Shown piece by piece: positions 12,047 to 48,000 of a DNA stretch of 64,000 bases. Origin of the DNA: Symbiodinium sp. CCMP2592 (taxonomy: Eukaryota; Sar; Dinophyceae; Suessiales; Symbiodiniaceae); the NCBI GenBank assembly GCA_905221615.1, contig CAJNDT010003146.1, positions 461,646 through 525,645 of the forward strand, in the 5' to 3' direction. A program made the translations under genes and the position numbers. How positions within the stretch are numbered: position 1 is the stretch's first letter; each line of letters begins with the position of its first letter. The notes below the pieces were generated by a model. It did no database searches, had not been told where the DNA came from, and was given only the letters and a program-made list of their open reading frames with translations.

Positions 12047-15000
12047 CTGATCAGGTGCTTCGTAAGCGAGCTTAAGATGAGTTTTCGGCTGCTTGCAGCC
12101 CCACTAAACGCTTGAAACTATTGGTGTCCGCCCATGACCCCAAAGGGTCCAAGTATCATTATGGTATATACTTATAGGGTAGTTTGGAGGTCTAAGTATA
12201 TACCATAATGATACTTGGACCCTTTGGGGAAGTGCTAAGATCGAAGGACCGGGCCGAGCACCCAAAAACATTCAGCAGCCCATGTTCCACAATCGCCAAC
12301 CCCGAACCAGAAGCGCATGCACTTATGCGGCTGTGGCTCTACGCCGTCTTGAGCCCAATATCCGACAACCCAAAGCCCTGTAGCCTGAACCACCGAATCT
12401 TTTCAGGAAGGACATTATTTCGATTTACTCCCAAGAACCGTGAATGCGTCGGTGAGCAGAAAGTAGATGTAGTCGCATAATATATGTAGGTGACAATGAT
12501 GTCGTGAGGCAGTAGTCGTTACCATTGCCGTCGAAGTCGTACTGCTATTAGTAGTCGTGGTGGTGGTGGTGGTGGTGGTGGTGGTGGTGGTGGTGGTACG
12601 TAAGTGGTGGTGGTAGTGGTAGTGCCAGCGGCAATGGTAGTAGTGGTTGCGGTGGTCGTGGTGCTGCCGTCTTTCCTTGGGATCTAATCGTAAACCCGAA
12701 AAAACCTGGGATTTCTCACATCCTAAGCATCAAATTCGTAAATCAGAAAATTTAACTCGAAGCTGGAAATACCTCATTCCCAAATACGCCAACAAACCTA
12801 CATATATATATATATATATACATACATACATACATACATACATACATACATACATACATACATACATACATACAAATGTGTATACATACATGTATACATA
12901 TATAGTGGTGTGTCTGTGTGTTCTCATAGTGCGTATGTATGTATATATATATATATATATATATATATGTATATATCACTCTGTAACCATCTACGTACAT
13001 ACATAAACACATACATACTTGCTGACTTACATATATACATATGGCGCGTATCGATGTTGTGTCTGACCGCCCTGAAAGCCACCGGCTTGTCCACCATTTA
13101 AACTTAGCAGTGGCCTTGCCGATCACAAAGACGTTCTCCAGCCGTGTGTTGAACTCATGACCAAGGGAGTCCTGCAGAGCGTAAGGCTTTTGAGTTTGCA
13201 TATGGGCTTTTACAATGATAGGCGACTTAGGAATTCTGAAGGGAGTTTCGGAAAAAATAGTTTCAGGATTCCTGGGTCTAAAGATAGTTGCGAACATGGG
13301 CCGCTTGCTGTCAGATGCGAAACACCATGCAACGAGTTTAGGGTCGAAGGCTCCATGTATACAAGCTAGAGATCGCAAGGAAGATAACCATTACTGGGTT
13401 GGCCTTTAAACACCCTGAAAATATTTAAAATATAGGGTCCCTTATAAACCCAAATAAGGAAAATACAAAATGTCCCCAAATCCAACCTAGATTACCGATA
13501 TTTGAACAGGAGTTCTGTGCGTTCTACTCCTCTGTGCTGAATTGATTGCTCGTGTACATCATCAGTTTCTTGTTGAATTGAGGCTCCACTAACGGTCCAA
13601 GGACCTCAATAGTTAGAGGGGCTTGAAAGGAAACAGAAACCACTCGCAATGTAGAATTGATATTTGGGACAAAAAATCCTACTAAACTACTACTTGGGTA
13701 CTTGGACCCTCGCGGTCCTTGATGTGAATGATCTCGAAGGAGCCAGGGTGCCTCTCACGCGAGGTGATGGTGCCGACACGACCAATGTTGTTTCCGGCAC
13801 CTGACAGGAACGGAGGATCAGGGGACTTAGTGGGTACTAGTGGGGTTTCAAATCAAAACGCAGTCAACAACGCTGTCTTGATAATTACAACAGGGTTGTC
13901 GGTATACTATACAATTGCTTATGTTGGGGACTACCGGGGGATACTGTCACTCATTGATCAGTACTCTATAACTGTAGCTTCAAGCTCTTCTGACCACGAC
14001 TAAGGTACTTACAGATGCCCCCCTCCCTCTTGTTCTTGAACTGGATTAAGCCTTGCAGCAACGCTAATCTGGGATGGGCTTTGGCAGCCCTGAAAATTAT
14101 TTATGGATCCGGGCTGTTTTTGTGCATCCATGTGAATGCAACACCAAGCAGCAATCACTCACTCTTTTTCTCCCGCGATCATGTGGAATGTCAACAGTGG
14201 TAACAAGAAAAACGCGACAATCAGCAGCCACTGACACTGGCAGCTCAGACGATGGTGGCCTGCAAGAGCAGGCAGAAACCAAAATCTGTCTTGACACCCT
14301 GACAATGGAAGCATTTGACACTCATTCTGTGTGGCAAGTGCAATAACACACCCAATGCGCACCCCTCCATGCCTGCTCAAAGTTGACACTGATTTCCAGC
14401 TGGTAGGCCTGACATAATAGAAACACGTGACACTCATTCTGTGTGGCCAGTACAATAACGCACCCAAGACGCACCCCTCCATGCCTGCTCCAAGTTGACA
14501 CTGATCTCCAAGACGAAGGCCTGCCATAGTGGATGCATTTGACACTCATTCTGTGTGGCCAGTACAATAACGCACCCAATACGCACCCCTGCCTGCCTTG
14601 TCACAGTTGACACTGATCTCCAGCTGGTAGGTGTGTCAACTTTGAGCACGCATGGAGGGTGCCTACTGGGTCCCAACACACACCCTCCATGCCTGCTCAA
14701 AGTTGACACTGATGTCCAGCTGGTAAGCCTGACATTAAGGAGCAATTGACTCTCATTCTGTGTGGCCAGTACAATAACGCACCCAATACGCAAACCTGCG
14801 TGCCTTCTCCAAGTTCACACTGATGTCCAGGAGGAAGACCTGACTTTAATGGATTGACATTCATCGACATCCACTGCACCGTAACTGCTTGTCGACATGG
14901 TGACACTTGGCAGAGGAATCATCAACCAAAACAGAGTCATAGCACCAACCAGGCGGCGAGCGGCTCATTCAGACCTTGCATGTTGGAACAGTTTTTCTCC

Positions 15001-45000: not shown

Positions 45001-48000
45001 CCTGCCATCGCTTGACACTGGAAGGTCGGGCCTCGGTGATGCAATGTGATATATTATGTGACACTGACAAAAACTGCTCTTGCAAGTCACTGCCATGACA
45101 CTCTGCCGACCTACCTATGGCATCTGACTCTAGCAGATAGATGATAAGAACATGACTCTCATCCTAGCTCTCGGCGGCGAATGGTCCATGCCGCATGACT
45201 CTTTTAGATGCTACCCTCAGACCATGACACTGCTAGCGGCGAATGGGTCATGCCGCAACAACATGGACACTACACCCTGGATGCCTCTGTGCTCTCAGGC
45301 GCTGACCCTGACTGCAATCGCTCGGTGTCCTGCCATCGCTTGACACTGGAATGTCTGGCCTCAGTGATGCAATGTGATGCATGTGACACTCACAAACTGC
45401 TCTTGCAAGTCACTGCTGTGACACTCTTGGCATGTGACTCTAGCAGCTTAGATGATGATTGAACATGACTCTCATCCTAGCTCTCGGCGGCGAATGGTCC
45501 ATGCCGCATGACTCTCTCTTAGATGCTACACTCAAACCCTGACACTGCTAGTGGCGAATGGGTCATGCCGCAACAAAATGACACTGCACTCTGAAGCGAT
45601 GACCCCGACTGCTATCGCCCAGTGTCCTGCCATCGCTTGACACTGGAAGGTCGGGCCTCGGTGATGCAATGTGTTTAATTATTATATTAAATTGAAATTA
45701 TTATTGTTATATGTGACACTGACAAAAACTGCTCTTGCAAGTCACTGCTATGACACTCTGCCGACCTACCTATGGCATCATTTATTGAATAATATTTATT
45801 TATTATAATTAAATTTAAATATTAAACTAAATATGTCATTTAATTATTAAAATAGACGACGACGAAAATAATCATTGAACAACATGACTCTCATCCTAGC
45901 TCTCGGCGGCGAATGGTCCATGCCGCATGACTCTTTCTTAGATTAGATGCTACACTCAAACCCTGACACTGCTAGCGGCGAATGGGTCATGCCGCACAAA
46001 ATGACACTGCACTCCGGATGCATCTGCGCTCTCAGGCGATGACCCTGACTGCAATCGCTCAGTGTCCTGCCATCGCTTGACACTGGAAGGTCTGGCCTCG
46101 GTGATGCAATGTGGTACCTGACACTGACAAACTGCTCTTGCAAGTCACTGCTATGACACTCTGCCGACCTACCTATGGCATCTGACTCTAGCAGACGATA
46201 AGAACATGACTCTCATCCTAGCTCTCGGCGGCGAATGGTCCATGCCGCATGACTCTCTCTTAGATGCTACCCTCAGACCCTGACCCTGCTAGCGGCGAAT
46301 GGGTCTTGCCGCAGCGGCGAATGGGTTTGCCGCAAACACCAGCATGACTCTGCACTCTAGGGCTCCACGCTGACACTCGAGGTGATCCACGGTGAGGGCG
46401 ATGTTCACATGAGAAGCTTGCTGACACTCGAAGCGAATTGTCAGTGGTAAATTACCACTGACAATTCGTTTCGAGTGGCAGCTTGAGCTAACGTGGCTTA
46501 TGGTTGTTTGACACTACAAACTTATGGTTGTTTGACACTACAAACCATACAATCAATCGTTGTATACCAAGACCCAGCAAAACCACAGAAATTAAAAACA
46601 CTCCGAAAGCACAGCCCAGTAATCTTACCTTTGGTTAGTAGGGAATGCAAAAATGGTAGTAATAGTAGTTATAATTGTACCCCATTCCTCCATTCCCTAC
46701 TAACCAAAGCTAAGTAAGAAGAACCCATAAGAGCCTTACCTGCTTACTAACTCCCCTGCTTCTCCAAGTAGTGATGGCAGGCTCGGAGGTGCTCCAGTAG
46801 CATCCGGCTTACAACGACAGAAGTACCTAGGGTTTGGGAGCTTATATTTTAGAATTTAGGGACACTCAACCATGAGCCGAAAACCTGAAAATCCTAAAGC
46901 TAACGCGAAGTCCCATGCACTAAGAGCGCCCTAGCCTAGAGCTCAACCCGTCAAAGCCCCGAGGCTGTAAAACTCGGGATATCGAAAAAAATACATGAAC
47001 CGGGCTACCCTAAACCCTAAACCCTAAAGCCTAAACCCTAAACCCCGCTATCGGGCCTGAGCCCCAGTCCACGGTGCAAAGTCTCGCGTGCTCAAAATGT
47101 GTCGGGTTTTAGGGCTCAGGGTGTTTGGATTAGGGGGGCGTTTCCTTAAGCTTGTTTGGGGTTATGCAAGGGAAGACTCACATCCCGCCAGCAGCACCTG
47201 AGGGAAGCTAAGTGCTTGTGAAACCCTCAAAAGAAGCTTGGGGAGGGTGCAGGGCTGTAGTGGGGTCGAGGGTTCAGGGAAAATTAAGGGAGAGATGGGG
47301 GTGCAGGGATGAATGGCTTCCACAACACCCCATAAAGACATACTATTTGGGCACATGGACCCTTAAACCCTTAACAGAACCCCTTGGTAACCCAGGCCTC
47401 AAAGGAGCCGGCCCTAAACTCTGAACCCCTATAATTATAAGCCATCCTAGACCCTAAACCTCAAACCATAGACGCTGTAAACCCCTAAAACCTAAACACA
47501 CAGGGAGCCGAGATGCCGATCATCACCAGGTTGCCAACCTCGAACTTCACGTGGTCCATGATCTTCCTAAGAGATTAAGGGCTTTGAGGGCCCTTAGGAT
47601 GGTAATCTAGGGTTTAGCTTTTTAAGGGGGATTCAAGGTTTAGGGCCAGGATGTGATATAAGGGCCTACGAACATCGGTTTGGAGGCATATGGGGGTGAT
47701 TCTACAAGGTCTGCGTGCTGCGGTAGAACTACAAGATCCCGTTATTCCGATCCCAAAGGGTCCAAGTATCATTATGGTATATACTTATAGAGTAGTTTGG
47801 GGGTCTAAGTATATACCATAATGATACTTGGACCCTTTGGGGATGTAGGCTTCAAGGCAAAAGAAGAATCGTGTAAAAGGAGGAGCAATTCTTGGGAATA
47901 AGCGGTGCAAAAAAAAACAACAAAACAACGACAAGCGTGTACAAAGTGAAAAACGACAGCGGTGTACAAAGTGAAAGGCGCTATGCCGAACAAATGGCGA

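Follow-up and report, generated by a model that had tools for sequence, protein, structure and literature searches.

A one-way word fills a giant DNA transposon of Symbiodinium and may act as a polar self-recognition signal

Why should one short word be written hundreds of times, in a single orientation, across more than 30 kb of a dinoflagellate genome? The window analysed here, 64,000 nucleotides of Symbiodinium sp. CCMP2592 (contig CAJNDT010003146.1 of assembly GCA_905221615.1, forward-strand positions 461,646 to 525,645), carries the heptamer TGACNCT 495 times on the plus strand and 19 times on the minus strand, and 490 plus-strand and 10 minus-strand copies lie within 14,069–46,619, the first at 14,232 and the last starting at 46,533. 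A first-pass annotation, made from the letters alone, had described a strand-biased block at 14,200–46,550, with a word every 60–70 bp and only isolated cases outside, and the counts agree: mean spacing in the block is ∼66 bp (∼55 bp outside tandem arrays), the strands are far from equal, and a recount of 30,661–31,680, where about 16 words and no reversed one had been seen, gives 15 and 0. The host flanks of the window hold 5 and 9 copies in 30.7 kb, which is background, and the flanks of a second copy of the block, on contig C8, are near zero. Only the edges had to be moved: the true unit extends 131 bp further to the left and 69 bp further to the right, and it is a copy of a giant DNA transposon that has multiplied recently.

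14069..46619, no strand assigned: giant DNA transposon, this copy 32,551 bp; homology to C8 stops on both sides and the ends are common to 19 other copies
14065..14068, no strand assigned: left target site duplication, TAAT
46620..46623, no strand assigned: right target site duplication, TAAT
14069..14079, plus strand: left terminal inverted repeat, CTGGGATGGGC
46609..46619, minus strand: right terminal inverted repeat, CTGGGCTGTGC on the minus strand
14232..46539, plus strand: 490 copies of TGACNCT (AGNGTCA in gene sense), plus 10 reversed
14316..19623, plus strand: 112-bp tandem arrays at 14316–14622, 15380–15949 and 16698–19623; the 26-copy array has two words per unit
42008..45673, plus strand: 325-bp tandem array with several words per unit; related sequence runs on to ∼46,400
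28901–29000: assembly gap of 100 N, where the C8 copy is ∼2.2 kb longer

The ends are inverted repeats of the CTGGG type. We checked the ends of 20 copies, the window included, picked for a 100% match at both ends, and found identical 4-bp flanks on either side in 18 of them (two of these extended by simple repeats); of the two exceptions one has ATATA on both sides and the other no exact repeat. Read by eye, the C8 copy, which is outside this set, has ATGT on both sides and one base changed in its left end. Genome-wide searches returned at least 40 left and at least 40 right ends, all 100% identical among the 40 scored of 53 and 60 candidates, and a piece of the transposase used as query found 112 matches, of which more than 30 had 98% identity within an open frame of 777 amino acids. 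The C8 copy is 98.8–99.9% identical to the window over most of the block, its match ending at both block sides; the exceptions are the left arrays, the surroundings of the assembly gap and a 1-kb stretch at 36,850–37,883. It is the exact ends, the target duplications and the many near-identical copies that identify the block as a mobile element. Shorter end pairs with matching 4-bp flanks also occur, of ∼13.6 kb on C4984 (68,545–82,137) and ∼13.9 kb on C3990 (373,429–387,334), and are probably internally deleted derivatives.

The word is sharply defined. With the arrays and a CT run masked it still stands at 310:10, and the 310 compare with a mean of 17.4 in dinucleotide-preserving shuffles (standard deviation 4.3, maximum 28; n = 200), while its 18 single-substitution neighbours occur only 2 to 21 times each. 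The minor form TGACNNCT, whose centre has two bases, is itself enriched (58:4), and this together with the scarcity of the neighbours indicates that the signal consists of the half-words TGAC and CT around a short flexible centre. Since the probable genes lie on the minus strand, the word in their sense reads AG-N-GTCA, and of 326 words outside the main arrays 55% have a C before them. Words fall in every codon phase, in intergenic stretches and in the tandem arrays; their density in the C8 copy is 17.3/kb in coding-like stretches, 20.5/kb in the terminal arrays and 10.1/kb in the rest. Outside arrays, words in the window are spaced more evenly than chance would have it (Kolmogorov–Smirnov p 1e–11), with 182 of 296 gaps at 30–74 bp and 34 below 30 bp; the set comprises gaps under 300 bp, 13 longer ones being left out. 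Across the genome, 25,745 instances of the pair TGACNCT-N20-50-TGACNCT were counted, and 6,212 of the reversed pattern that served as control. The dominant strand-biased words in host control pieces are of another kind, namely CCCTAAA-type repeats, which in degenerate form also dot the host flanks of the window (6526–6594, 11475–11599, 47007–47045, 54587–54737 and 60984–61039).

Within coding sequence the word overrides codon choice. In the C8 copy the transposase frame of 777 codons holds 45 words, in phases 19, 13 and 13, and 2,000 permutations of synonymous codons predict 8.6 (standard deviation 2.4, maximum 16). The excess thus outlasts both the dinucleotide and the codon-preserving control, and the first-pass view of a polar, degenerate-centre word unlike an ordinary gene feature was right.

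Related elements keep the build and polarity of the word and change its letters. We compared 4-kb stretches around five other transposase homologues and 3-kb stretches at two more, C816 and C3124. In sense and antisense of the transposase, AGNGTCA counts 48:1 at C164 and 42:2 at C1180; at C5049 the word counts 23:0 and is nearly always CAGTGTCA; at C1335 it is AGNGTGA (30:0), with just 2 AGNGTCA. The first-pass annotation had raised the question of whether polarity follows gene direction, and it follows the transposase gene in all 5 word-bearing elements (the window family, C164, C1180, C5049 and C1335). Among distant relatives, neither AGNGTCA nor AGNGTGA is in excess in the 4-kb stretch at C91, and neither occurs in the 3 kb at C816 or C3124. 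The C3124 stretch (566.5–569.5 kb) has GGCCNCTC at 11:0 in all three phases, possibly a word of its own, with a score (13.3) that lies within those of host controls (up to 19.1). A GGCG excess at C816 was rejected as a word and read as codon bias, with 38 of 57 in one phase. A 39-kb block at C1:700–739 kb, with a direct duplication of ∼7 kb inside, carries a stricter word, TGACNCTG, at 81:5 and lower density, and may be the same kind of element. The genome-wide pair pattern for the C1335 word is at background (7,343 against 8,443 for the control), as expected of a rare family.

The changed words largely occupy different places. In alignments of codons at 50–53% nucleotide identity, the word places common to the C8 copy number 8 for C1180 (of 42 and 26), 4 for C1335 (of 43 and 21) and 0 for C5049 (of 40 and 15); shifting predicts 0.38, 0.23 and 0.12, which C1180 and C1335 exceed, and identity at word sites in these alignments is no higher than elsewhere. 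The close relative C164 has 41 places in common with the C8 copy, of 45 and 44. Retention of ancestral positions is rejected for the distant families, each of which has for the most part written its own words. The use of synonymous codons was measured by counting, as opportunities, all positions at which the present protein could be encoded so that the word arises: 60 of 88 are used in the C8 copy, 31 of 48 in C1180, 21 of 53 in C5049 and, for AGNGTGA, 28 of 28 in C1335, counted in stop-to-stop frames that possibly include short non-coding ends. Because existing words are opportunities by construction, more is learned from those left unused (28, 17, 32 and 0, respectively) and from control words: AGNGTGA takes up 2 of 32 opportunities in the C8 copy, and in C1335 AGNGTCA takes up 2 of 36.

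What has to be explained was thus observed directly: the transposon and its ends, the word, its polarity, the synonymous excess and the changed words of relatives. The explanation we favour, at about even chances, is that the word forms a family-specific polar array for self-recognition, read by a nucleic-acid-binding protein that the element encodes, its density marking self. A sequence-specific protein would bind AG-N-GTCA, present in many same-way copies over the full length of the element, and the density of these copies would tag the element as self, so that it stays open and expressed against host silencing, or would load the transposition machinery. If density matters, selection among copies would drive the word into available places, synonymous positions included, and a shift in the specificity of the reader, as between AGNGTCA and AGNGTGA families, would lead to an element rewritten with the new word. 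The existence and identity of this putative reader, the selection on density and the choice of DNA rather than RNA as target are parts of the proposal; candidate readers would be the possibly zinc-binding N-terminal part of the transposase, an open reading frame (ORF) with CxxC motifs and the methyltransferase. The genes of the window copy are the following.

30664..34135, minus strand: transposase with a Hermes-like model; overlapping frames of 416 and 398 amino acids plus a downstream stretch
25084..26989, minus strand: C5 cytosine DNA methyltransferase in two open stretches, 26408–26989 and 25084–26229
27831..29153, minus strand: ORFs matching a 447-amino-acid protein of the C8 copy, broken here by the assembly gap
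35399..36199, minus strand: 266-amino-acid ORF with CxxC pairs, zinc-ribbon-like by eye
37486..39126, minus strand: Q/N-rich ORF with RG stretches; two long overlapping plus-strand ORFs are taken as shadows
40356..41182, minus strand: charged ORFs, probably coiled coil by eye

The transposase, split into two overlapping frames in the window, is a single frame of 777 amino acids in other copies, and the structure model of that frame resembles Hermes, a hAT transposase, and has the hAT fold. Target duplications in the wider hAT superfamily are 5–8 bp. That of Hermes is 8 bp (PMC10368747), and the 4 bp found here in 18 of 20 copies make an unusual pairing for hAT. The Cys/His pattern of the N-terminal part is conserved in the alignment; modelled alone the region is of poor quality (mean predicted local distance difference test score, pLDDT, 51.6), and no family came up for it when the entire transposase was used in a fold search. 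The methyltransferase matches Pfam DNA_methylase at E 0.00075 and 19.5 bits, under the curated cut-off of 22; its pieces in C8 match adjoining portions of the same profile, likewise below the cut-off, and related elements carry linked homologues. The 447-amino-acid protein has a methyltransferase-like VVDLTPGSG stretch by eye and two homologues; Pfam gave no match of note for it and no family for the 266-amino-acid CxxC ORF. One scan of viral contigs with query P0007 found no relative.

Precedents exist for such reading of an element by its own protein. VANDAL transposons are a Mutator-type family, and in this they differ from the window element with its Hermes-like transposase model. VANDAL21 and VANDAL6 of Arabidopsis have family-specific motifs and VANC anti-silencing proteins (PMC5735166, PMC10398659), and the likeness lies in dense same-way motifs within a transposon (490:10 in our case) and in related families with differing motifs (here AGNGTCA, AGNGTGA and CAGTGTCA); the VANDAL reader is known (VANC), that of the window element putative. 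In hAT transposons, the BED zinc finger of Hermes binds subterminal repeats (PMC10368747); our element is alike in its many short motifs and in a CxxC...CxxC...HxxxxxH region that precedes the Hermes-like model, but hAT motifs lie near the ends, whereas ours cover 32 kb, one way only. Together, the VANC precedent and the subterminal binding lead us to think that the word serves as a self tag for a protein which the element itself encodes. Symbiodinium also has retrotransposons that carry a DNA methyltransferase (DNMT) (PMC5890265), similar in being dinoflagellate mobile elements with a cytosine methyltransferase; unlike the DNA transposon of the window they are retrotransposons, and the part of that report at hand mentions no word.

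Several points weigh against the self-recognition array. The reader and its binding are putative, and a one-way signal suits an RNA target equally well. VANC motifs are mainly non-coding or in tandem repeats, while our word, as the C8 densities show, is not mainly non-coding and fills coding sequence in all phases. Even spacing is found again in C164 (coefficient of variation 0.69) but not in C1180, C1335 and C5049 (0.86 to 1.01), and in the window the word shows no clear 10.5-bp (helical) phasing. Between the window and the C8 copy, word sites differ as often as others (6 of 1,751 against 82 of 20,334), which reveals no constraint at present. Word sites diverge less than others within the 112-bp repeat (at 1.0% and 4.7%, respectively, with a rotation fraction of 0.12, in C8 0.21) and in comparison with C164 (2 of 272 against 62 of 2,662; p 0.12), but these differences are not significant and suggestive only. 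In the transposase stretch of 28 more copies, 0 distinct variants fall at word sites and 13 elsewhere; as ∼1 was expected at word sites, the zero is uninformative. An exclusion zone around words was also considered, since in C8, though not in C1180 or C5049, the distance to other words is smaller for unused opportunities than for used words (p 0.004), and dropped, because any C8 position is nearer still (median 15 versus 22) and the comparison is confounded.

Of the alternatives, the one that survives best, though we think it rather unlikely, is that the word is read on sense RNA, an element or host protein binding AG-N-GUCA every ∼55 nt of long transcripts, which would be protected, exported or packaged, or kept from wrong splicing or trans-splicing. 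The strict orientation along the transposase sense strand in all five word-bearing elements, the absent helical phasing and the encoded RG- and Q/N-rich protein (function by eye) fit such a target. However, words come as close as 80 bp to the right end and also fill the arrays lying upstream of every assigned ORF, which would require transcription of almost the entire element, and a known DNA reader, VANC21, has same-way arrays too.

We consider it improbable that the element's own methyltransferase recognizes the word and marks self by modifying one strand. A C5 homologue does follow the transposase on its strand, ∼7–8 kb downstream, at C164, C1335, C225, C2985, C5049 and C1180, but the word bears no visible trace of deamination, its transition neighbours not being in excess (TGATNCT 7, TAACNCT 13, TGACNTT 13; others up to 21), and the distant C816, with a methyltransferase homologue near its transposase, has neither word in its 3 kb.

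Very little speaks for the words being a by-product of codon bias, tandem duplication or mutational habit. Some were indeed multiplied by tandem arrays, and word sites in the two copies compared show no constraint, yet 310:10 outside the arrays rejects repeat expansion alone, and the shuffles and permutations (at most 16 words against 45 observed) reject dinucleotide composition and codon usage. Insertion scars are disfavoured by words in all three phases of open frames, conversion of near-matches by one-mismatch neighbours that are not generally depleted, and a by-product would not explain related families with changed words in mostly different places.

Chi, KOPS and DNA uptake sequences are short words in large excess, some oriented or with a degenerate base, and are known at far lower densities than this one. 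Our word is likewise polar, with a degenerate centre, and spread across the whole element, but a Chi/KOPS-like signal for a DNA motor or recombination step in transposition or donor repair is very improbable, as the word marks a transposon, to which it is confined as far as seen, and not a whole host genome, differs between related families and has no motor gene recognised beside it (though most ORFs are without a family); with the examined flanks at background and AGNGTGA in a related transposon, it does not look like a genome-wide signal of the kind that uptake, segregation or recombination words are, to which the first pass had likened it.

A broader reading than the self-recognition array, which we put forward tentatively, is that a group of giant transposons in dinoflagellates bears an overlapping code, polar and running across coding and non-coding sequence, which changes by lineage and is possibly read on RNA. 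The one-way bipartite word would then be a second layer of constraint, spelled wherever the protein permits, in most or all places, and such a code, if true, would be a categorically new kind of nucleic-acid self-recognition. We found no earlier report in open-licence literature on short or polar motifs and on large or methyltransferase-bearing dinoflagellate transposons, an absence that is itself unproven; looking for the word itself brought up papers on cyanobacterial PHB and on methotrexate. If the self-recognition array is real, it would be an unusually dense signal of this kind overlapping the genes of a mobile element, and a case of synonymous codons apparently fixed by a signal at the nucleic-acid level. 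The natural variants of the word (AGNGTCA, AGNGTGA and CAGTGTCA) should make its reader findable by comparison, and the finding offers a direct test of how giant transposons remain active in dinoflagellate nuclei.

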